Notes under the pieces: generated by a model | The model's input: only the letters and a program-made list of their open reading frames with translations | Databases searched by the model: none | Told to the model about the DNA's origin: nothing | Program-made: the position numbers and the translations under genes | In this document: positions 15,467-55,285 of the stretch, piece after piece | How the letters are laid out: each line of letters starts with the position of its first letter | Position numbering within the stretch: position 1 is the stretch's first letter | IMG/VR virus record: IMGVR_UViG_3300042731_008397 | Coordinates: 1 to 64,000 of that record | Strand: one strand, 5' to 3' | Length of the DNA stretch: 64,000 nt | Origin: a virus

Positions 15467-16000
15467 ATGAATTTAATCGGGACAAAATTCATTTATGACG
15501 GGATAGTTTACGAAGTTCACCGTAAATGGGATCAAACAGGAGAACAAATAACAGTTTTTTGGGGAGCTTCGCCCGTCAATAAACAAATCTTACATGGAAA
15601 GAAGGAAGTTTTCACATCAGAAGAAATCTTAAAGGCAGAAACCCCGGTACAATTCGGGTTTCAGGCAGAAGAGGAGCTTTTACAGCCGCATACGGTCATT
15701 ATGACCAGCGTGGATTATGGATCGGAAAAATTTGAATATGACACATTAATTGAGGCAACAATGGGGCTCCATCGCCTGATGAAAAACGCTTCGATCCGGA
15801 CAGAACAGGAAAACGAGTGTACCCGTTGGTTTACCTTAAAACGGACGGATCGGATGCAAGAAGAGGACATTTCTGATGGTGAGGAACTTGAATGGAGACC
15901 CCACATACTGGACTATGATAGAGAGGAACGCCCGGTATCAGAATTAGATACGGGCACGGCTGTCAACTATGGGGATAAGAAGTACCCGGAAAGTCTATAA
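15467..16000 (+). CDS. Unknown 177-residue protein
   Basis: ATG after AAAGGAGATTATAACGT. Beta-rich N-terminus (MNLIGTKFIYDGIVYEVHRK), acidic C-terminus. Its last eight codons (from GDKKYPESL) overlap the start of the tracrRNA-like element, so that RNA may be processed from the 3' end of this mRNA. Confidence 0.6.
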   Translation: MNLIGTKFIYDGIVYEVHRKWDQTGEQITVFWGASPVNKQILHGKKEVFTSEEILKAETPVQFGFQAEEELLQPHTVIMTSVDYGSEKFEYDTLIEATMGLHRLMKNASIRTEQENECTRWFTLKRTDRMQEEDISDGEELEWRPHILDYDREERPVSELDTGTAVNYGDKKYPESL

Positions 16001-16140
16001 GCTGACCGGCTATGTGGCGTATTTCACGTCCAGTGTGGGAGGGTTTTCCCTTCCTCCGAATGCTTTCAGAGATTGCCAAATAAAGAACCTTTGAAAGGGA
16101 TTGAAAGAAGCTTCCCCTATCACAAGATGAGGAAATGCCG
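15980..16140 (+). ncRNA. Predicted natural single-guide RNA (tracr-repeat fusion), copy A
   Basis: From AAGTACCCGGAAAG it follows the tracrRNA beside the CRISPR array almost base for base through GCTTTCAGAGATTGCC. Copy A then continues with AACCTTTGAAAGGGATTG and AAAG, a 20/22 match to the 3' part of the CRISPR repeat. CTTTCAGAGATT (about 16065) can pair with AACCTTTGAAAG in 11 of 12 positions across an 11-base loop. The guide would start at 16108 (AAGCTTCCCCTATCACAAGA) and runs into the ribosome site of the next gene. No own promoter of the tracr type is visible. Confidence 0.65.
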
Positions 16141-16691
16141 TGAAAAAGAACACATGGGACACGTTAGAATTTTATCGTAACCAGTTTCTTGAAATTGCTG
16201 GAAACGCCCTTGAATGTAGTGTCAAAAACCGAAATCGTTGGCGACAAACAGGACGGCAATTATTCAGAGAACTTTTCCGGGGATGTTATCGTCCTGGTTT
16301 CTGCCGCCATCAGGGATTTTGGGTATATGACTTGCTCTGTCAACCGGCATTGCTTTTTCTCTTTATCAAACCACATAGAGATGATCCAGTCTGGAAACAA
16401 GAGAATGCCGGGACATTCTGGCGGTATAAATGGTTTCTTGGAGTCGGATTTACAAAACCGACTGCCCGGTCTATGGCGTTACTTCACGGGGCAATTGAGA
16501 ACTTTGAAGGACGTCCTGGCGGAACAATTCTTCCGTTCCATGTTCAGTTAGCAAAAAAAGCTTGTCAACAGTTAAATCGTGAAAATCCTTTTATCTGTTC
16601 TTCATCTTCACTTCATACGGCTGCCGAAGAATGGTTGAAGATCGTGGGGTTTGGAGATTCAGAAGAAGATCAGGAGGAACAAAAGCAATGA
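16140..16691 (+). CDS. Unknown 183-residue protein
   Basis: GTG start after GATGAGGAAATGCC; this ribosome site lies in the putative guide of copy A. Contains aromatic, basic segments (GFWVYDLLCQPALLFLF; FWRYKWFLGVGF). Unknown. Overlaps the phosphoesterase start by four bases. Confidence 0.55.
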   Translation: MKKNTWDTLEFYRNQFLEIAGNALECSVKNRNRWRQTGRQLFRELFRGCYRPGFCRHQGFWVYDLLCQPALLFLFIKPHRDDPVWKQENAGTFWRYKWFLGVGFTKPTARSMALLHGAIENFEGRPGGTILPFHVQLAKKACQQLNRENPFICSSSSLHTAAEEWLKIVGFGDSEEDQEEQKQ

Positions 16692-24639: not shown

Positions 24640-26475
24640 ATGGAATTAGCAGCAAGAACCATTAAAATTGCCTTAACAAATCTGTCGAAACAAGACCGGG
24701 AACATTTAACACTACTCTGTATCCATGCCGCAAGAATCTATAATGCGGCATTATGGTGTTGTCGGCAGCATTATATTAACCCGTCAATAATCCCTGACTG
24801 CCCTGATTGCCTGGTATGCCCATGTAAAGAGCAGTTTGAAACACTCCGATATTCATTGTCAAAAAATAAGATCGCACAACTGGCGGTTCCTGAAGAAATA
24901 CGGGCTAAATTGCGTCCAATTACCAAGCGCAAGGTATTCCGTTCAGAGTTTGAAGAACACCTCAAAGAGTGTTTATCACGGTCTGAAATGACCGTGTATG
25001 GAGAGAAAATCTTTGAATCTTGCCAATATTACGATAGGTTTCTGACAACCTATACGTTAGATTCAAAAGTGCTTCGACACCGGGAGTCTACACGGGTTCA
25101 CTTTGAAATATCTAGCAAAACCGCCCATTATATGGTAGATCAAGCTGTTAAAGATATACGGAATTATGATAAAAGTATCTGGAAATATTTGCAGAAGCAC
25201 CACCTTTCTTTCTTACAGCTTCGGGCAGAGCAAAAAAAGAAGAAGTATCGTGATGCTCCACGAATTCCAGGATATAAAAAAGACCAGCATTATTTAGGCG
25301 AAAACCATAGAAGTGATCAAGCTCCACCATTCGGACGAATTATCGCCGAAATAGGGAATGGGTTCGTTAAAGTTGATGACCGAACATTACGCCTAAGCCT
25401 TTCAAAAACGCTTAAAGATAAAGGCTTTACACCAATTTGTATCCCGATCCCTGAGTGGCTTCAATTTAATGATATTCGGAAACTTCAAATTACTCCGAAA
25501 TTTCGGAGTGAAGAGTTTTCGGTATCATTGACATACCAAGCATCTGTTCCGACAACTACAACGCCTGACAGCATAAGGATAATGGGAATTGATCTTGGGG
25601 TTAATAATCTTGCGGCCTGTGTGGACATGGAGACTCCATTCGCGTTTTTATTCAAAGGATCTTCTGTCAAATCAATCAATTGGTTTTGGAATAAAGAATG
25701 TGCCCGATTACGGGAATGTATGGCAGATCAAGATCCTCGTTCAAAATATAGTGTAACTGAAGAGAGTATCCAACTTTTACAAACCGTTCTTCCTGATGAC
25801 CTATTATTACGGTATAAACAACTTTGTGGACAGTCTTTTGCCACAGCGCAAAAACTCATTTTAGCATGTCATTTAACAGGAGATGAACAGAAGCAATGGC
25901 AACAATTGGTTGTCCCGTTTTCGACTCAATCTCACAAATTTCCACAGTCACGGCAGCTTTACCGAATCACCCGTCGCCGGAATGCCAAAATTGAATATAT
26001 CATGCAACAGGTTGCCAGATATATTGTAGATTACTGCGTTAAGCATCACATCAATACGGTTGTTGTTGGGGTGAACGTCGGATGGAAACAAGGTGTAAAT
26101 ATAGGGAAACGGAATACTCAAAATTTTGTGCAAATCCCGTTTTTACAGTTACGGAATTATCTAAAATATGCCTGCGAGCCGGAAGGAATAGCTTATATTG
26201 AACATGAAGAAAGTTTCACATCTTTATGTTCTTTTTTGGATTATATGGAGATTCCTACGTATGATGGAAGCAACGAACTCCATACATTTTCCAAATCATT
26301 AAAAAAACGCAGGAAACGAGGACTATACCAGACAAATAACGGGACTCATGTTAACGCCGATTGTAACGGAGCCGCTAATATCGCCGTAAAAAGCGGAAAT
26401 TGGCAAGGGGATCGTAGCCAATTCCTTGCTTGTTTACGCTCACCTAAAATAATAAAATTATCAGAAATTTCTTGA
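24640..26475 (+). CDS. TnpB-derived Cas12-like (type V) effector
   Basis: 611 residues, ATG after AAAGGAGATAGCTTT. RuvC-I IRIMGIDLGVNNLAA (Asp318). At the usual RuvC-II place it reads VVVGVNVGWKQGVNIGKR (about 475-491) with Gly where Glu is normal; a Glu is instead in IEHEESFTS (523/524), as known for TnpBs with a rearranged catalytic site. RuvC-III is NADCNGAANI (Asp574). No C-terminal CxxC zinc ribbon is seen, but CPDCLVCPC (54-62) in the N-terminal part may bind metal. It is larger than TnpB (about 400) and lies next to a tracrRNA and a CRISPR array. Expected to be an RNA-guided DNA nuclease. Subtype not assignable by eye; no cas1 or cas2 nearby. Confidence 0.8.
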   Translation: MELAARTIKIALTNLSKQDREHLTLLCIHAARIYNAALWCCRQHYINPSIIPDCPDCLVCPCKEQFETLRYSLSKNKIAQLAVPEEIRAKLRPITKRKVFRSEFEEHLKECLSRSEMTVYGEKIFESCQYYDRFLTTYTLDSKVLRHRESTRVHFEISSKTAHYMVDQAVKDIRNYDKSIWKYLQKHHLSFLQLRAEQKKKKYRDAPRIPGYKKDQHYLGENHRSDQAPPFGRIIAEIGNGFVKVDDRTLRLSLSKTLKDKGFTPICIPIPEWLQFNDIRKLQITPKFRSEEFSVSLTYQASVPTTTTPDSIRIMGIDLGVNNLAACVDMETPFAFLFKGSSVKSINWFWNKECARLRECMADQDPRSKYSVTEESIQLLQTVLPDDLLLRYKQLCGQSFATAQKLILACHLTGDEQKQWQQLVVPFSTQSHKFPQSRQLYRITRRRNAKIEYIMQQVARYIVDYCVKHHINTVVVGVNVGWKQGVNIGKRNTQNFVQIPFLQLRNYLKYACEPEGIAYIEHEESFTSLCSFLDYMEIPTYDGSNELHTFSKSLKKRRKRGLYQTNNGTHVNADCNGAANIAVKSGNWQGDRSQFLACLRSPKIIKLSEIS

Positions 26476-26501
26476 CAACGGATATTTCATACAAGTAATA
26501 T
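26472..26501 (+). promoter_or_regulatory. Promoter of the tracrRNA
   Basis: TTGACA, 18 bases, TAATAT. It overlaps the end of the effector gene. The same promoter (TTGACAAC, GATATT, TAATATGGGAATTACAAG) precedes the fused copy C at 35003. Confidence 0.8.
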
Positions 26502-26507
26502 GGGAAT

Positions 26508-26604
26508 TACAAGTACCCGGAAAGTATGATACTGACCGGCTATGTGGCGTATTTCACGTCCAGTGTGGGAGGGTTTTCCCTTCCTCCGAACGCTTTCAGA
26601 GATT
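26508..26604 (+). ncRNA. Predicted tracrRNA
   Basis: Starts near GGGAATTACAAGTACCCGG. Stem 1 AGTAT/ATACT, then GGCGTATTTCACG with TCCA pairing, then GGGAGGG-TTTT-CCCTTCC, and the anti-repeat CTTTCAGAGATT (26593-26604), a perfect complement of AATCTCTGAAAG in the CRISPR repeat. After it, CCGAGCA and TGCTCGG (26606-26678) can close a further hairpin. Copies A and C share the body with paired changes in stems. Confidence 0.75.
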
Positions 26605-26744
26605 GCCGAGCAGGGGATGCTGACAAAGCAACATTCTGTATCTGCCTACAAACATGGCTAAGACAAAATGATTGCTCGGAGACTATATATAAGGCATTTG
26701 TACCCTTAAAAAGACAAAATTTATAGTTCTTTGACAGCATTTTT

Positions 26745-26813: not shown

Positions 26814-27433
26814 GTAGAAAAGCTAATAAATCTCTGAAAGGGATTGAAAGCTTCTCATACCCGGCAAATTCTGCTTGTAATGCTGTAGAAAAGCTAATAA
26901 ATCTCTGAAAGGGATTGAAAGGACCGGGATTCGTTAACTGTCCAGGAAGCCCGGTTGAGTAGAAAAGCTAATAAATCTCTGAAAGGGATTGAAAGTCCCA
27001 TACCGTTGACGGGAATAGCCCGTCATTGAGTAGAAAAGCTAATAAATCTCTGAAAGGGATTGAAAGTACCAGAATATCCCCTGTTTGCCCGTCAACAATC
27101 GCGTAGAAAAGCTAATAAATCTCTGAAAGGGATTGAAAGGGGGCATAAAAAAGGCGCCCTCGCCAGGACGCCCAAGTAGAAAAGCTAATAAATCTCTGAA
27201 AGGGATTGAAAGCCGCTGATAGATAGCAGATTCCAGATTATAGATTTGGTAGAAAAGCTAATAAATCTCTGAAAGGGATTGAAAGGTTGAAGTAATTGGT
27301 TCATAATTTTCTCCTTAACGTGCGTAGAAAAGCTAATAAATCTCTGAAAGGGATTGAAAGATATTGGTCTGTTAGGCGTTCCCGGTTTATTTCCATGTAG
27401 AAAAGCTAATAAATCTCTGAAAGGGATTGAAAG
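26814..27433 (+). CRISPR. CRISPR array, 9 repeats of 37 bp, 8 spacers
   Basis: Nine identical repeats start at 26814, 26885, 26959, 27030, 27103, 27176, 27249, 27324 and 27397, beginning GTAGAAAAGCTAATAAATCT and ending GGGATTGAAAG. Spacers are 34-38 bases. Transcribed rightward the crRNA has a 5' handle, as in type V. Spacer 5 reversed is a GC hairpin with a T-run (a terminator), spacer 7 reversed holds AAGGAGAAAATTATG (ribosome site and start) and spacer 8 reversed begins ATGGAAATAAACCGG. No match inside this window was seen. Confidence 0.97.
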
Positions 27434-27453: not shown

Positions 27454-28056
27454 ATGATTCTTAATAGAAACCAAGAAATATGTTCTCTCCCGACACGGAC
27501 ACATTTGAGCTTCCAAAATTACATAATCATTGACTATACAACACAAGACACGATTGAATTATCCAAAGATCAATATAATCCGTTTAGACTAGGGAAACTT
27601 CCTATTACTTTAGATACTTCTTTCAATGTGCTTTATGTTGATCTTTTTGCTCTGAACTTCGGACAGAAAGAACCTTTGATGAAACGGGAAAACCGGACAT
27701 GGGTTTCTATTATTTACAAGTGTTCACGGGCGGTGAGAGATGAAATTTTATTATTACCCATTGAGAAAATCCATGCCGAATTTCGGAAAGAACAGTGTCC
27801 TTACCGGACTTGTCAATACTGGCAAAAAACTCCCGGAGTTAACAGAGAGATTTATTGCCTTTTAGCCCGGTATCGGCTTTTGTCTTCATTTGGAGAGGAT
27901 AAAGGCTACACGTTAGAACAAATAAGCCGGATTTTTTCAGTTTGCCGTGAATGGGTAAGACGTATCGAGGACAGCGGGTTACACCGTTTACGCAAAAGAA
28001 AGAAATCTCTGAAAGAGACTGAAAGTAAAGCGAAAGAAAGGAATAAAACATTATGA
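27454..28056 (+). CDS. Sigma-70 region-4-like regulator
   Basis: About 200 residues from ATG 27454; the frame also opens at a TTG in the last CRISPR repeat, which is less likely. The C-terminal part YTLEQISRIFSVCREWVRRI followed by EDSGLHRLRKRKKS matches sigma region 4.2 (TLEEIGxxxGVTRERVRQIE and LxxLR). Regions 2 and 3 are not evident. It might be a phage sigma-like or anti-terminator factor. It is next to the array, and a CRISPR-repeat-like sequence lies in its last codons. The next gene starts at its stop (ATGA). Confidence 0.6.
   Translation: MILNRNQEICSLPTRTHLSFQNYIIIDYTTQDTIELSKDQYNPFRLGKLPITLDTSFNVLYVDLFALNFGQKEPLMKRENRTWVSIIYKCSRAVRDEILLLPIEKIHAEFRKEQCPYRTCQYWQKTPGVNREIYCLLARYRLLSSFGEDKGYTLEQISRIFSVCREWVRRIEDSGLHRLRKRKKSLKETESKAKERNKTL
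28003..28025 (+). repeat. Degenerate CRISPR repeat 3' half inside a gene
   Basis: AAATCTCTGAAAGAGACTGA then AAG: 21 of 23 bases match the 3' end of the CRISPR repeat. The following bases (TAAAGCGAAAGAAAGGAATA) include the next ribosome site. It encodes KKSLKETESK. Confidence 0.6.
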
Positions 28057-35002: not shown

Positions 35003-35032
35003 TTGACAACAGATATTACTTGTATGTAATAT
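35003..35032 (+). promoter_or_regulatory. Promoter of fused guide RNA copy C
   Basis: TTGACA, 18 bases, TAATAT; downstream ATGGGAATTACAAGTACCCG is identical to that of the tracrRNA promoter at 26472. Confidence 0.8.
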
Positions 35033-35038
35033 GGGAAT

Positions 35039-35165
35039 TACAAGTACCCGGAAAGCCTATAGGCTGACCGGCTATGTGGCGTATTTCACGTCCAGCGTGG
35101 GAAGTGTGACTCTTCCTCCAAACTCTTTTTAGAGATTGAAAGCCTACTTTTTCCCGATGATTACG
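35039..35165 (+). ncRNA. Predicted natural single-guide RNA, copy C
   Basis: Body AAGTACCCGGAAAG, AGCCTATAGGCT, GTGGCGTATTTCACGTCCAG as in the tracrRNA. The stem changes to GGGAAG/CTTCC with its partner, and the first stem is AGCC/GGCT where the tracrRNA has AGTAT/ATACT, so pairing is kept. The anti-repeat and repeat are reduced to CTCT-TTTT-AGAG followed directly by ATTGAAAG (ends 35142). The guide begins at 35143 (CCTACTTTTTCCCGATGATT) and runs antisense into the 3' end of the lipoprotein gene. Confidence 0.65.
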
Positions 35166-35965
35166 TTTGAAATAACCAGACCTTTTGGGGCATAACGCCG
35201 TGGGTTAGCTCCCAGTTGGATTTGATGTTTTGTCGGAGCAAACGGCCCATTATACTGCCCTGTCAAGACATGCTCTCCGTCTCTGAACACTAAAACGGTT
35301 GAATTCCCCCACTCGATCCGGAAATGATATTCTTTTTCGGGATCCCAATCTCTGGTGACGTAACCGCTTTCTTCCCACTCTCCCCGGCTTTTGATCTTTG
35401 CTTTAAAGGCGTTTGAAGCGTCTGGACGGTCTTTGATAAAGCCATATTTCCGAATTTCAAAGATATACGGAGCATTGGCGTAATCATAGCCGTCTTCGCC
35501 CGACCACATTGACACCAGAACACTCTTAAACTCTGTTCCCCCGTATAGTTCGTCCTGTTGAAAGCCTTTTGCCGTAAATTCGATATACCCGGAAGCCGTT
35601 GTCGGAATCTCCCAGTGTGCATACCACCAGCGGGATTCTGTAGTATAAACCCCGTCTTTAACTTTTCCATACCGTGTTTCTGCCTGATCAAATCCGATAA
35701 AAAACACATTATCGGGGAGTGGCACCGGCGTAGCGGTCGGTGTGGGAGTCGGAATCTCAGGAGTTTCGGTTGGCTCTGGCGTTACAGTCGGTAACGGGGT
35801 CTCTGTCGGCGTCGGCGTTTCTTCTGGTCCAGGTGTCGGTGTCGTTTCCGGATCAGGTAATGTGTCAATAAAATCTCCGATGTCATCTAATAGCTCCGCG
35901 CAGGCTACCAAAATGCCCATTACAAGGACACAGGTAAGGATAAACAACGTTTTTGACGTTTTCAT
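35144..35965 (-). CDS. Lipoprotein with Pro-Thr-rich linker
   Basis: 273 residues from ATG after GAGGAAGAGTC. Signal TLFILTCVLVMGILVAC with lipobox LVAC, then an acidic stretch, a long Pro-Thr-Glu linker (TPTPGPEETPTPTETPLPTV) at about 45-85, and a beta-rich C-terminal domain with WYAHWEIPTTASGYIEF and FRIEWGNSTVLVFRDGEHVL, which looks like a concanavalin or glucanase-like sandwich. Such PT linkers are common in Chloroflexota. Possibly a host-surface lipoprotein. Its stop lies in the guide of copy C. Confidence 0.75.
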   Translation of the reverse strand: MKTSKTLFILTCVLVMGILVACAELLDDIGDFIDTLPDPETTPTPGPEETPTPTETPLPTVTPEPTETPEIPTPTPTATPVPLPDNVFFIGFDQAETRYGKVKDGVYTTESRWWYAHWEIPTTASGYIEFTAKGFQQDELYGGTEFKSVLVSMWSGEDGYDYANAPYIFEIRKYGFIKDRPDASNAFKAKIKSRGEWEESGYVTRDWDPEKEYHFRIEWGNSTVLVFRDGEHVLTGQYNGPFAPTKHQIQLGANPRRYAPKGLVISNVIIGKK

Positions 35966-36087
35966 GACTCTTCCTCTTGTTTTTCGGGCTTTTCCGGGAA
36001 AATTCGTTGTTTTATGCGTTTTAGAAGTCCCCGGCAAAACTGGACTATCCCAGTTGCCCAAATAACGGTGTTTTGGCGTATATTCAT
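35962..36087 (-). CDS. Small basic 41-residue protein
   Basis: MNIRQNTVIWATGIVQFCRG with a short hydrophobic core then KRIKQRIFPEKPEKQEEES. Starts right after the next small gene's TAA and overlaps the lipoprotein ATG. Confidence 0.45.
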   Translation of the reverse strand: MNIRQNTVIWATGIVQFCRGLLKRIKQRIFPEKPEKQEEES

Positions 36088-36521: not shown

Positions 36522-38615
36522 TTAGGCAAGTTCTTCGAGGAGATCCGCGTCAAGCTCTTCTTCAGAGCTTCCACTGCCAAGATCGTCTCTCTGCCTCTCC
36601 CCGTTGCCAGCGTGATCGTCAACTTCATGGTGCGCGTCTAACCGCTGTAAGGCTAAAATCGCCGCTGCTTTCCACACGGGACGGCCTTCTTCTTGACAGC
36701 GGTTAATCAGTTCTTGCAATAACGCCCGGACGATTAAATACTCCTCGGGAACACAGATGTCAACCGCCTGGACTATCGTTCCTGACAATAACGAAACATC
36801 TAACCGGGTTTTCCAACGCTGTTCTATCTGAAACCGCTCCCGTTGCAAGGCTCGAAAGCGTTCCTCCGACTTATCATCTCCTAACGGACGGTCGAATGCA
36901 ATCAGGTCTACCATGTCGCCCGGTACATGGGAAGCATTAGCCAATTCCCCCATTAACCCGTCATCTAAAATCAGTTTCGCCCGAATTGCGGCAGCTAACG
37001 CATGTAAAAAGTGATCCTCCATGCCTCGTTTCCTCTCCCATCCTCTCATCGGAACATCTGAGTTCTTAGGCATTATCTCAACCCGAACAGAGCTTGTCAA
37101 GTGTTCTTTAAGCTCCTTATCTATCAGCGCGTTTCCAGGCAAGATTAAGAGCTTATCCACGATATGGGCATAGACTTGATCTATCATAAACGTCCGGTCA
37201 TCATGGATTAAATGGTTCTTTTGATCCACTTTCGCCCGCTGTTTGGGACCGGTTAAGTAGTATAACCCCCATGTTACCCGCCGCGTCTTCGCCGATTTCT
37301 CCCGTAAATTCAAAAATGTCCGGTATTCCGGCTGTGCATCCATTAAACACGATAATACCTTATACCGGTTGATTAGCCGGTATACCTCATCCACATCTTT
37401 GTACTTGCCCCAGTGTTCCAAAATCAACCATTCTCCCCATACACGGGCAATCACCACATATAACCAGAGCTTCCCCACATCTATCCCCATCACGGTCGTC
37501 TTTTGCCAGTTCGCGGGCCGCTCACTCAAGGCAATGACACAATCTTGTAACATCGCCTCTGTAATCTCTCCACGGGCTTGGCTATACCCCTTCCCTTCCG
37601 TGGTCGCCCAAAATTGCTGCATTCCGTCTATACTGCGTACCGCCTCATTAAAAAACCGAAAGGACATCTGCCTCAAGCTTAAATTCGGGGCCATAATCTG
37701 ATTCACCCAGTAACTATGCACCTCCCGACCCGGAAACATCGCCACCCACTCCGAAGGTAACCCAAAACGCGGCATCGGACGGGTACAATAGCGGCACATA
37801 TAGTGTATGTCCCGCGTATCTTCCCGCGCCCAGGTCGCATCCCTCAAGATATATTTCCACTCTTCTATCTGCCGAACTACCCCCGCAAAAAAACTGTACG
37901 GCTGCCACCGCCCACAATGCGGGCACTTCGCTACCCATATCCGCTGATCACCAGCCCGATACTCCCCGTCTACCATCACCTGGGACGCTTGCGGGTTGCC
38001 CTGTATGATGCTGGCCTGTAACATACTCGCCGTTACACGGTCTCTTGCCATGTCTACCGTCGCCTGCCCGCCCCCTAAGACGTTAAAATCATGTTCATCC
38101 GACACATAAAAATCCCAATCATGCCCCGCCAACGCACTTTTCACCCGCGCCCCAATAAATGTCACCGATCCTAACCCGATGTTCCGTATGTCTACACTCT
38201 GAGTCGCCGCCGCCGCTCCCCGCATTAAATACTGATAATAGGGACTCCGCAATATCGAGGTCTTGATCCGCTGCTGAACAAATTTCTGCGCCTCCCCTAA
38301 TGTCGGTAATATATACCCCCCATGATACCCCGCCCGACACCAATCTACCACCTGTAAATACGCGGCCTCGGTCATATACACCTGAACCGCCTTCCGAACT
38401 ACCCGAAATGGATGCCCGTCTGCATACATCCCGTATAAAAACGCCCGATCACTAAATATCATCCGCTGATAATGCCCCGTCTCCGTGTCCATCCGCCGTG
38501 TCGTGTGAAACCCCAAGGCTAAATGTAACCGACTCCACTCCCCACGCAACGGGTCATATACCCCCCTTACCAACACCTGACGCTTCTCATCCCCTTTCTC
38601 CCGGCGCTTTAACAC
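36522..38615 (-). CDS. terL: Phage terminase large subunit (GpA-like)
   Basis: 697 residues. ATPase part: VVRKAVQVYMTEAAYLQVVD as adenine/Walker-A-like region without a classic GKS/T, and WDFYVSDEHDFNVLGGG as Walker B (DE). Zinc pairs CPHCGRWQPY and CRYCTRPMPRF. Nuclease part: TVMGIDVGKLWLYVVIARVW with Asp, CLMDAQPEYRTF, and GMEDHFLHALAAAIRA. Length and order fit GpA-type packaging motors. The C-terminal tail (about 80 residues) is acidic and unusual. This gene shows the element packages DNA into heads. No small terminase or portal seen adjacent. Confidence 0.85.
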   Translation of the reverse strand: MLKRREKGDEKRQVLVRGVYDPLRGEWSRLHLALGFHTTRRMDTETGHYQRMIFSDRAFLYGMYADGHPFRVVRKAVQVYMTEAAYLQVVDWCRAGYHGGYILPTLGEAQKFVQQRIKTSILRSPYYQYLMRGAAAATQSVDIRNIGLGSVTFIGARVKSALAGHDWDFYVSDEHDFNVLGGGQATVDMARDRVTASMLQASIIQGNPQASQVMVDGEYRAGDQRIWVAKCPHCGRWQPYSFFAGVVRQIEEWKYILRDATWAREDTRDIHYMCRYCTRPMPRFGLPSEWVAMFPGREVHSYWVNQIMAPNLSLRQMSFRFFNEAVRSIDGMQQFWATTEGKGYSQARGEITEAMLQDCVIALSERPANWQKTTVMGIDVGKLWLYVVIARVWGEWLILEHWGKYKDVDEVYRLINRYKVLSCLMDAQPEYRTFLNLREKSAKTRRVTWGLYYLTGPKQRAKVDQKNHLIHDDRTFMIDQVYAHIVDKLLILPGNALIDKELKEHLTSSVRVEIMPKNSDVPMRGWERKRGMEDHFLHALAAAIRAKLILDDGLMGELANASHVPGDMVDLIAFDRPLGDDKSEERFRALQRERFQIEQRWKTRLDVSLLSGTIVQAVDICVPEEYLIVRALLQELINRCQEEGRPVWKAAAILALQRLDAHHEVDDHAGNGERQRDDLGSGSSEEELDADLLEELA

Positions 38616-39959: not shown

Positions 39960-40627
39960 ACTTCCCGTTGAGCGAATTCAAAAAACTTCATATCTTATAA
40001 GATGTCCCGTATCAGGGGATTTCTAGCTTTTTTTTCGAGGCGAATTCAAAAAACTTCATATCCTATAGACTCGTTTTTTACCCGATATTTCGTTATTTTC
40101 TTTAGCAAGTTTAGCAATTTACGCAAGTTTCTTGTAAGCTTTTATAAAGAAAGAGCTTACAAATCCTCATATTTTATCATATTTTATCATATTCTTGTTT
40201 TCGGGAACTTTAGCAAGTTTAGCAATTTACGCAAGTTTCTTGTAAGTGATTATACAATGAAGACTTCTGGCGGCTCATACTTTATCATACTTTATCATAT
40301 TTTGGCTAAACCAGAACACATGTGTCTTAGTTGCGGCCTATAAACCAGAACACATGTGTCTTATTACCAGAACACATGTGTCTCGATTACCAGAACACAT
40401 GTGTCTTATTACCAGAACACATGTGTCTTATTACCAGAACACATGTGTCTTAGTTGCGGCCTTCCTTTTGTGTCTGGGAATACCCGTCTCTCTAAGCAAG
40501 ATATGTGTTCTCTCGCGTGCGCACGCGCGTATTTTTTCTAAAAAAAGAAAAAATAATTAATTAAAATTATTTTAAAAATATTATATTAAGAGAAAATTTG
40601 CCCGCCTTTCTGAGAAAGTCGGCGGGC
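39960..40627. other. Putative replication origin: direct repeats, iterons, AT-rich tract
   Basis: No gene from 39533 to 40896. Two copies of GCGAATTCAAAAAACTTCAT (near 39973 and 40041), two of GCAAGTTTAGCAATTTACGC (near 40106 and 40211), TCATATTTTA tandem repeats, then six CCAGAACACATGTGTCT iterons (40311, 40345, 40367, 40390, 40412, 40434; ACACATGTGT is a palindrome), GCGTGCGCACGCGCG, an AT-only stretch and GCCCGCC/GGCGGGC hairpin with a T-run (40600-40627). A replication gene follows. Confidence 0.75.
40311..40450 (+). repeat. Six iterons of CCAGAACACATGTGTCT
   Basis: Core spacing 22-23 bases for the last five, 34 for the first; each contains a perfect 10-bp palindrome. Typical of initiator binding sites. 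Confidence 0.85.
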
Positions 40628-43400: not shown

Positions 43401-43639
43401 AAAAAATGAAATTTTGAACAGTTCGTGGTTGGTTTAAGAATCGGAACGGTTCGGAGAAAGATCAAGAACCGTTCGCAGAAACGGAACTGATGAGAACCGC
43501 TGATTTTCTAAGCGGTTCGTGGGGTAGTTCGGGGCGCAGGAAGGTATCGTATATGAATATTAGTTCTATATAAAAAAAAACATAGGATTTTATATAAAAA
43601 TAACTTGACTATATGATAGCACTATTCCATAGTGTCATC

Positions 43640-44233
43640 ATGAAATTATCACAGTGGGCAAAACGGCAAGGCGTCAGTTATCAGACGGCCTGGAACCTGT
43701 TCAAAAAAGGGCAGCTTCCAGAAGCGTATCAATTAGAATCCGGGACAATTATTGTCCCGGAACCACAGCAACAAGCCAAACCAGAGTATGTCGTCTGCTA
43801 TGCGCGAGTGTCTTCCTCTCAAAACCGGGATAATCTTGACCGACAGGCTGAACGGCTGACCTCCTACTGTCTGGCGAAGGGCTATATTGTGCAAGAAGTC
43901 ATTAAAGAATGCGCCTCTGGCCTGAATGACACACGCCCTAAATTCTGCAAGATGTTGTCGAATCCAAAGATGACACGAATTGTTGTTGAGCATACTGACC
44001 GTTTCGCCCGATTCGGTATCAATCCGATCCGGATTCTGTTGGAACGACATGGATGTACGCTTGAAGTGATCAACCCGGCAGCAAACGACAAAGAAGATCT
44101 GATGCAAGATTTTATCAGCTTAGTGACATCCTTCTGTGCCAGAATATACGGAAAACGCCGCTGTAAACGGAAAACTGAACAATTGATCAAAGACCTTCAA
44201 GATGATACGAAAAACAACGCTCAATCTCAATAA
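43640..44233 (+). CDS. tnpA: IS607-family serine recombinase TnpA
   Basis: 197 residues from ATG 43640; a nine-codon upstream in-frame extension is less likely. N-terminal MerR-like HTH (MKLSQWAKRQGVSYQTAWNL), then the serine recombinase domain: VVCYARVSSSQNRDNLDRQA with the catalytic Ser. VEHTDRFARFGINPIRILLE and the C-terminal basic helix fit IS607 (about 200 residues). Catalyses site-specific DNA recombination via a 5'-phosphoserine link. Overlaps tnpB by 32 bases. Confidence 0.9.
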   Translation: MKLSQWAKRQGVSYQTAWNLFKKGQLPEAYQLESGTIIVPEPQQQAKPEYVVCYARVSSSQNRDNLDRQAERLTSYCLAKGYIVQEVIKECASGLNDTRPKFCKMLSNPKMTRIVVEHTDRFARFGINPIRILLERHGCTLEVINPAANDKEDLMQDFISLVTSFCARIYGKRRCKRKTEQLIKDLQDDTKNNAQSQ

Positions 44234-45251
44234 CGCGAATATCGGCAAACAACAGACCTTGCTCGACATCAGCACGGAGTACAACCGTGTGGTCAATCTC
44301 TGCATTGACGACCTGTGGGAGCAAGAACAGTTTTCCGGCTCCTTTGTCAAAGACACCGCCTGGATTGATACCTATCTCTCCGCTCGAATGAAGCAGTGCG
44401 CCGCCAAACAAGCCCTTGCTATTGTCAAATCACAACGGAAGAAGGAGCAGAAGACAAAACCCGTCTTCAATAAGCGTGTGATGGAACTGGACAGCCGCTT
44501 TGTTGAGCTTGAGCAGGATGTCAATTCATTTGACTGCTGGATTACCCTGTCCTCCATCGGCAAGAAGCTGAAACTTCAGATTCCGACCCAGAAACATGCT
44601 CACTTCAATCGCTTCCTTGAACAGGGCTGGACACTCAAGAAGAGCCTCCGTATCCGAGTGAACGCAAAGGGCTTTTGGGCAGATGTGTATTTCCAGAAAC
44701 AGGCTCCGGCTCCCAAGAAAACCGGGACAGTGAAAGGTTTCGACATCGGGTATAAAAAGCTGCTGGTGAATTCTGACGGTCAACAATTCGGCAAGGACTT
44801 TGAACAGTATGCCGAGAAAATCGCCCGAAAGCAGCAAGGCAGCAAAGGCTTCCTTCGTGCCTTGACGGAGCGCAATCAGTTTGTCAACCAGACGGTCAAT
44901 GCGCTTCCACTTGAGAATGTAAAGACGGTGGTAGTTGAAAATCTGAAGTCTGTCAAACACAAATCAAAAGGCAAAATTCGGAAATCCTTTAATAACAAGC
45001 TCCAACGCTGGACGTACCCGTTGGTGTTGGAACGCCTGACGAATCGCTGTGAATGCGAGGGCATCTCAATGACGTTCATTGATCCCGCATACACGTCTCA
45101 AACTTGTTCCGACTGCGGAATCAGGGACAAGCTCTCTCGGAAAGGAGAACGGTTTCAGTGCCGAACCTGCGGCGTCGAACTTGATGCTGACTGGAACGGG
45201 GCGAAAAACATTCTTCAGAAGGGAGTACGGCAGCCTATAGTCGCCGCATGA
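44202..45251 (+). CDS. tnpB: IS607 TnpB
   Basis: 349 residues. TVKGFDIGYKKLLVNS (RuvC-I Asp), TVVVENLKSVKH (Glu), YTSQTCSDCGIRDKLSRKGE and FQCRTCGVELDADWNGAKNI (zinc ribbon Cys four and RuvC-III Asp). All catalytic residues present, so probably active. Starts MIRKTTLNLNNANIGKQQTL within the tnpA end. The 42-bp right repeat overlaps its stop. Confidence 0.9.
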   Translation: MIRKTTLNLNNANIGKQQTLLDISTEYNRVVNLCIDDLWEQEQFSGSFVKDTAWIDTYLSARMKQCAAKQALAIVKSQRKKEQKTKPVFNKRVMELDSRFVELEQDVNSFDCWITLSSIGKKLKLQIPTQKHAHFNRFLEQGWTLKKSLRIRVNAKGFWADVYFQKQAPAPKKTGTVKGFDIGYKKLLVNSDGQQFGKDFEQYAEKIARKQQGSKGFLRALTERNQFVNQTVNALPLENVKTVVVENLKSVKHKSKGKIRKSFNNKLQRWTYPLVLERLTNRCECEGISMTFIDPAYTSQTCSDCGIRDKLSRKGERFQCRTCGVELDADWNGAKNILQKGVRQPIVAA

Positions 45252-54439: not shown

Positions 54440-55285
54440 ATGAAAAAAGGTCTGATTGTTGGTGTTGACAAATATCGAAACCCGGCATGGAATCTGCAAG
54501 GTTGCACAATGGATGCTGCCGTTATGCGGGGGATGCTACAAGATCATTTTGGTTTTTCTGGAGAAAGTCTTCGCGTATTATTAAACGAACGGGCAACAAA
54601 GCGGGGCATTGAAGACCGGTTAATGTGGCTGGTCAAAGACGCCCAAAAAGGGGATAGTCTGGTTTTCTTTTTTGCTGGACACGGCTCACAAGTTCGGGAT
54701 CGGGACGGAGATGAATTAAAAGACCATCTTGACGAAATTCTTTGTCCGACTGACCTTGACTGGGATGATCCGTTATCAGATGATATCCTCCATACATATT
54801 TCAATATGCTGCCTACCGGCGTCTTGTTGACGGTCATTTTCGATTGTTGCCATTCCGGGACGGGAACACGGTCATTAGGAGAAGGCGGGTTTAGCGGGCC
54901 TCCTCGCCCATTTTTGGATGATGATGGTTACGAGAAAACCCGTTATTTACCACCTCCACTTGACATAGAATACCGGACAAGAGGCGTATCACTGGAAAAT
55001 ACTAATGAATCGGGCGCGGTCAATCACTCTTCGATAAGACATGTCTTTTTTGCGGCTTGCGCTGCCCATCAAGAGGCGAAAGAGAAACGGATCAAACGTC
55101 AGGTCAGGGGAGCATTTTCATATTACCTGGGACACGTCTTGAAACGGGCAAACTGGCAAATTACTCCGTATCAGGCATTACAACGGGTACGGGCACGGTT
55201 GTCCGATAATCGGATATACCAGACTCCTCAGTTAGAAGGACCGCCCGCCCTTCATACGAACCAAATCTTTTCACTTGAGAAATAG
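54440..55285 (+). CDS. Metacaspase / caspase-like peptidase C14
   Basis: 281 residues. MKKGLIVGVDKYRNPAWNLQ at the start, then DSLVFFFAGHGSQVRDRDGD (His81) and LLTVIFDCCHSGTGTRSLG (Cys137) give the catalytic pair. YLPPPLDIEYRTRGVSL and a FAACAAHQEAKE segment follow, as in type I metacaspases without a prodomain. Cuts after Arg or Lys. Position after the DpdA fragment and before a ParB-like gene, in a rightward operon. Phage-borne caspases are unusual. Confidence 0.88.
   Translation: MKKGLIVGVDKYRNPAWNLQGCTMDAAVMRGMLQDHFGFSGESLRVLLNERATKRGIEDRLMWLVKDAQKGDSLVFFFAGHGSQVRDRDGDELKDHLDEILCPTDLDWDDPLSDDILHTYFNMLPTGVLLTVIFDCCHSGTGTRSLGEGGFSGPPRPFLDDDGYEKTRYLPPPLDIEYRTRGVSLENTNESGAVNHSSIRHVFFAACAAHQEAKEKRIKRQVRGAFSYYLGHVLKRANWQITPYQALQRVRARLSDNRIYQTPQLEGPPALHTNQIFSLEK

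Follow-up and report, generated by a model that had tools for sequence, protein, structure and literature searches.

Copy C, its promoter and its sister copies

The window, i.e. the whole stretch of 64 kb that was analysed, is the first part of a phage record of 132,054 bp, and its positions 35003-35165 hold a dispersed copy of a tracrRNA gene (copy C) with its own promoter, a full scaffold, a short hairpin, the sequence ATTGAAAG and a guide-like tail. All parts are on the plus strand: a sigma-70-type promoter (35003-35032), read directly as TTGACA (35003-35008), an 18-nt spacer and TAATAT (35027-35032); a guide-RNA scaffold (35042-35137), which the covariance models R1 and R2 described below score at 109.5 and 103.4 bits, respectively, and which includes helix 1 (CCGG-AA-AGCC-UAUA-GGCU-GA-CCGG; 35048-35071); a small hairpin inside the anti-repeat (CTCT-TTTT-AGAG; 35123-35134), taken from direct reading and folding energy; ATTGAAAG itself (35135-35142), which on direct reading is identical to the 3′ end of the CRISPR repeat; and the tail (35143-35165), beginning with CCTACTTTTTCCCGATGATT. 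The tail overlaps a putative lipoprotein open reading frame (ORF; 35144-36061, minus strand), which is convergent with copy C and has its stop codon at 35144-35146, and the gene for the phage terminase large subunit is found at 36522-38615 (minus strand).

Within the window, BLAST aligns copy C with the tracrRNA region at 26465-26605 (84.7% over 144 columns, E 6e-39) and with copy A at 15968-16075 (84% over 109, E 1e-28). Sequence and BLAST both uphold the original prediction of a guide RNA that has a separate promoter and shares its body with the tracrRNA, here that of a resident Cas12, and also the succession of a CTCT-TTTT-AGAG hairpin and a repeat-like end. A 30-nt core of the scaffold is unchanged among the tracrRNA (T), A and C copies, the loops differ, and the 3′ hairpin of copy C is divergent.

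The effector gene, 8.5 kb from copy C, encodes a TnpB-derived Cas12 of 611 residues (24640-26475, plus strand). Directly 3′ of it lies T (26511-26611, plus strand; scaffold 26511-26604, then the anti-repeat), with a promoter at 26472-26501 of the TTGACA/TAATAT pattern, followed by a CRISPR array (26814-27433, plus strand) of nine identical 37-nt repeats and spacers of 34-38 nt. Exactly four scaffolds (A, T, C and D) are present in the whole record. Copy A (15968-16107, plus strand; scaffold 15980-16074) is a fused single guide between the ORFs at 15467-16000 and 16140-16691, in which the anti-repeat and the 3′ part of the repeat form a single 9-bp hairpin; the scaffold of copy D (104528-104622, minus strand) falls outside the window, and its hairpin has 8 bp and a 4-nt loop. 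The two copies share the terminal sequence TTGAAAG, and both sit between same-strand ORFs, in operons just before ORFs; from their sequences, A and D are plainly fused single guides. Copy C had been announced as the ‘second’ single guide: its single-guide-like make-up stands, but it is one of three copies (A, C and D) other than the tracrRNA. As a separate observation on copy D (G000 104264-104622, minus strand; L007 264-622), its tail begins precisely at the start codon (ATG) of an 81-aa ORF, and a probable Shine-Dalgarno sequence is found within the repeat strand of the hairpin.

The pattern TTGACA-N16..19-TAATAT occurs twice in the window, where 0.02 occurrences are expected, and only at T and C; such a promoter is absent at copies A and D. 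The promoter that C was said to share with the tracrRNA does agree in hexamers and spacing, with the middle 8 nt of the spacer inverted: CATACAAG in T and CTTGTATG in C are exact reverse complements, flanked by inverted repeats, so that one micro-inversion would explain most of the difference between the two spacers. For this reason, the conservation of the hexamers says less about selection than the percentage would imply. The sequence common to T and C begins at the promoter, and no further shared ends were seen.

Homologous RNAs at tnpB 3′ ends and the fold

The relation of the scaffold to transposon RNAs was examined with two covariance models. R1, built from the four copies only and run on 84 tnpB loci and 12 of 46 pattern loci, matches L072 (25.6 bits, E 1.6e-4) and L123 (22.7 bits, E 1.3e-3), in each case across the tnpB stop codon. 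R2, built from six sequences (the four copies with L072 and L123 as further training rows), gives 11 matches with E<=10, each on the same strand as tnpB. They are spread over 10 of the 84 tnpB loci, the other 74 having none, and the best new one is L062 (44.2 bits, E 1.1e-9). Ten of these matches are found at the 3′ end of tnpB, the position of the omegaRNA; the remaining one (L137, 2191-2269) is upstream and next to a repeat array. L137 is the only one of 79 tnpB-like loci from IMG/VR with such an array. From 2299 onward this phage contig merits a remark of its own, as the array is directly upstream of the TnpB-like gene and weak matches to the scaffold model are found on both sides.

In the L123 omegaRNA, a hairpin of 4 bp with a 4-nt loop (UCUC-UUAU-GAGA) occupies the position of the CTCT-TTTT-AGAG hairpin of copy C. 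The ‘shortened repeat helix’ of the original prediction is therefore one possible reading of this element, since tnpB-borne omegaRNAs carry a small hairpin at the same position.

Folds of single sequences are modestly stable (z-scores of -0.8 to -2.9; -1.94 for copy C). Among the four copies, 96.9% of helix 1 is paired and two pairs, in its upper stem, show two-sided, compensatory changes; the covariation score of the whole structure is reached in 18 of 500 shuffles and the number of two-sided pairs in 55 of 500, and this control is not decisive, four paralogues being too few rows to settle helix 1. When the tnpB omegaRNAs are added, helix 1 has two-sided changes at seven of its eight pairs, and in the 12 distinct rows 97.9% of its cells are paired. 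The alignment used (A7) contains 13 aligned matches, 12 of them distinct; its positive loci number nine, and L137 is left out. Its whole-structure covariation score is 0.642, versus 0.187 in shuffled alignments (0/500) and at most 0.167 in slid controls; every shuffle is beaten on all measures except further pair types (11/500), and every slid control on all. Since the model both selected the rows of A7 and shaped their alignment, the result is biased towards its structure, but the scores of the slid controls are far lower. Both the claim that stem changes are compensatory and the fold selected, and the proposed check by covariation on homologues, are borne out, with stem pairing kept and helix 1 covarying across the 12 distinct sequences.

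Among the 79 tnpB-like loci, 56 hold a complete ORF of 350 aa or more that is distinct from the others (48 of these 56 are in structure alignment A3), and the RuvC residues D318, E524 and D574 of the effector are identical in all 56 viral TnpBs, so that the effector is, judging from its sequence, probably a nuclease. The glutamate belongs to an EES-T motif, the layout of RuvC that is termed ‘rearranged’. Profile searches give 32.9 bits for NCBIfam CRISPR_Cas12f2, which fails the cut-off of 450, only 39 bits for PADLOC Cas12f and 103.5 for guided_TnpB, which just passes the cut-off of 100. The predicted structure (pLDDT only 72, and low in a large part of residues 48-177) has Cas12f, Cas12m, TnpB and LaTranC (9jfq, E 1.6e-6) as its nearest folds. 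In agreement with the RNA matches, a tree of 62 rows (the effector P0001, 56 viral TnpBs and five named TnpBs) places the effector in the clade (99/100) that contains all seven model-positive TnpBs, and the 29 rows across from it include no positive; two further positives (L085 and L131) lie outside the tree, and the long branch of the effector makes its exact position unsure. RuvC catalytic residues, a CRISPR array and a tracrRNA with a complementary anti-repeat are features of type V systems that are all present.

Closer relatives were sought in several ways. In IMG/VR, exact searches gave no hit for a 32-mer and a 21-position core and 46 stretches for a 16-mer core, none of which passed E 0.01 when scored with an HMM built on the copies. 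By blastn, copy C has no match in INPHARED and PLSDB and T a single one in INPHARED (E 5). Patterns of eight residues recovered no relative of the Cas12 or of the terminase. The 3′ half of the repeat gave one single match in IMG/VR and six in GTDB genomes, all without Cas12 or scaffold, which look like chance.

What copy C may do

The homology of the scaffold with RNAs at tnpB 3′ ends and the covariation of helix 1 together argue for an omegaRNA-type single guide. Copy C is very probably a real RNA gene and is likely bound by the resident Cas12; that it acts as a single guide, and not as a tracrRNA, is the reading we favour with some reserve, and the fuller proposal, that it is a complete single-guide gene of the omegaRNA type, belonging to the TnpB-derived Cas12 of the phage itself, has a little better than an even chance. 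The RNA would be transcribed from 35003-35032, fold without a crRNA and be loaded into the 611-aa Cas12, with about the first 20 nt of the tail, CCTACTTTTTCCCGATGATT, as the guide; its target may, with less assurance, lie beyond the phage genome, in the host chromosome, a rival phage or a plasmid. The hairpin of A-type RNA is flanked by GATTG direct repeats, and a plausible origin of copy C would be an A/D-type fused guide that lost its repeat strand by deletion between these repeats, leaving ...AGAG-ATTGAAAG, after which one G-to-T change would have created the CTCT/AGAG stem.

The suggestion of a foreign target derives from the fact that none was found in the record, and we give it slightly less than an even chance. 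Elsewhere in the record the best match to the 20-nt guide is 15/20, equalled by 33 of 40 shuffled guides; IMG/VR holds no exact 20-mer, and the hits in ten records of INPHARED phages are none better than E 0.2. The target search called for by the original prediction has thus returned no target in these three collections. The guide had also been described as antisense to the 3′ end of the lipoprotein gene. It is antisense, but the overlap of the two in cis, with the stop codon inside the tail, explains this by itself. Self-targeting or silencing of the lipoprotein gene is not sustained, as the guide matches only its own locus there, next to the repeat end: the tail is preceded by GATTGAAAG, the flank common to every array spacer, so that the effector must tolerate that site.

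The main rival is a tracrRNA role, because the anti-repeat of copy C still pairs with the CRISPR repeat (-16.7 kcal/mol, versus -4.8 for its own hairpin with flank). Copy C would then be a second tracrRNA gene, whose anti-repeat pairs with the crRNAs of the array, the tail being read-through and the AAAG after ATTG either chance or the trace of an older fused form. A 12-bp pairing with the repeat is indeed kept, with wobbles and at -16.7 kcal/mol, compared with -22.4 kcal/mol for T, the promoter resembles that of T, and ATTG already belongs to the anti-repeat of T. However, AAAG at exactly this place is expected about once in 200 by chance (an estimate from base composition), the scaffold family also occurs as fused single guides (A and D), and the changes specific to C weaken the pairing with the repeat and create an internal hairpin; on balance, we consider this role unlikely, if worth serious thought. 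That copy C is a functionless, decaying duplicate would suit its divergent 3′ hairpin, the targets sought in vain in the record, IMG/VR (exact 20-mer) and INPHARED, and the lack of relatives in the searches above, but it sits badly with the promoter hexamers (T and C) and the 30-nt core, unchanged while the loops differ, and with the compensatory changes in helix 1, and is judged improbable.

Two regulatory readings were also weighed. The guide could act through a short seed on a phage or host gene, without cutting, in the manner of TldR, for which one report on phage TldR gives guides as short as 6 nt as sufficient (PMC13418256). A 10-nt seed match does occur at G000:113295 (minus strand), and A and D are placed in operons directly before ORFs; yet about 0.4 such matches are expected by chance from base composition, and the catalytic residues of the effector are intact, which makes this, too, a reading of low probability. 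Alternatively, transcription of copy C might control the lipoprotein gene by antisense pairing or interference, independently of Cas12, given that its promoter is directed towards the convergent ORF (35144-36061), which transcription would enter from the 3′ end. Such control would leave the conserved scaffold and handle unexplained, and an overlap of 3′ ends is easily incidental, so it is deemed very unlikely.

Relation to known systems

The omegaRNA (reRNA) of TnpB (IS200/IS605) is a close model, having a homologous scaffold at the tnpB 3′ end and scaffold and guide in one RNA, with the guide being whatever sequence follows the scaffold. Copy C differs in that it is remote from the effector gene, whose 3′ end is occupied by T, carries a separate promoter, has the CRISPR-repeat-like ATTGAAAG at its end where a GC hairpin and GTCAA(G) would be expected, and shows no transposon ends. 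TranC, reportedly presented by Jin et al. in Cell in 2025, is said to comprise transposon-CRISPR intermediates with a TnpB-derived effector, a CRISPR array and an omegaRNA split into tracrRNA and crRNA, and to use both crRNAs and reRNAs. The effector, array and split RNA of the phage are alike, and unsplit RNA genes are also present; on the other hand, the system described here is phage-borne, has a 611-aa effector whose sequence matches none of the TranC chains at E<=1, and carries its unsplit guides as several dispersed genes.

The long tracrRNA isoform tracr-L acts as a natural single guide and resembles copy C in being tracrRNA-related beside an ordinary crRNA system. In type II-A, it represses the cas promoter (PMC11417352). 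Copy C is instead a separate gene, and a tracr-L-like reading was set aside as its guide matches neither the effector-gene promoter nor any other site in the record better than chance. The TldR guide RNAs of prophages (PMC13418256) likewise combine a phage-encoded TnpB-family protein with a stand-alone guide; TldR is nuclease-dead, whereas the effector here keeps its D/E/D residues, and identity with TldR was rejected on these grounds. A Racr-like reading was also weighed and set aside. Phage mini-arrays and single-repeat anti-CRISPR RNAs are small CRISPR-related units dispersed in phage genomes and consist of repeats only, with host Cas proteins used or blocked (PMC11656645); copy C, by comparison, has a complete scaffold, and the phage encodes the effector itself. 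In two further sources, about 50 independent TnpB-to-CRISPR associations are inferred (PMC12669027, the 2025 classification) and phage TnpBs are found beside CRISPR arrays in a landfill study (PMC12607003). A full-text literature search with limited subscription coverage turned up no paper whose title concerns natural single guides scattered in a phage and serving its Cas12.

The evolutionary route from the one-piece guide RNA of transposons to the tracrRNA and crRNA pair of type V CRISPR has yet to be settled. The phage system has the look of a TnpB that was domesticated into a Cas12 and retains unsplit guides alongside its split tracrRNA and CRISPR array, and, with split, two hairpin-fused and minimal forms beside one effector, the working forms and their order of origin become directly testable. 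If the single-guide reading is true, the phage would run free-standing single guides outside its array. A bolder picture, which we regard as doubtful, is that of a phage Cas12 between transposon and CRISPR, served by a split array and by dispersed unsplit omegaRNA-like genes programmed by local 3′ sequence, with A and D in operon leaders, where the mRNA start would be the guide tail; in that case, Cas12 binding at A and D could both arm the nuclease and gate translation.

Some minor observations concern the array and the wider genome. After the last repeat, 27434-27453 matches 18 of 20 nt at 27607-27626, inside the downstream sigma-70-region-4-like ORF, with the 5′ flank CCTATT and no equal among 40 shuffles, for which self-regulation or a local duplication is possible. 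At the 3′ end of the same sigma-like ORF, a solitary repeat-like stretch (28004-28025; 20/22 nt to the array repeat) is in frame. Spacer 4 has a 17/20 match in the phage itself at window position 54664 (minus strand), equalled by none of 40 shuffled spacers, and spacer 7 (27286-27323) is antisense to a Shine-Dalgarno sequence and ATG start, the source gene of which was not found. At 43613-45251, a resolvase and a second TnpB-like ORF resemble an IS607-type element, and repeated 22-nt units, ACCAGAACACATGTGTCTTATT, at 40310-40472 are a possible binding-site cluster or origin.
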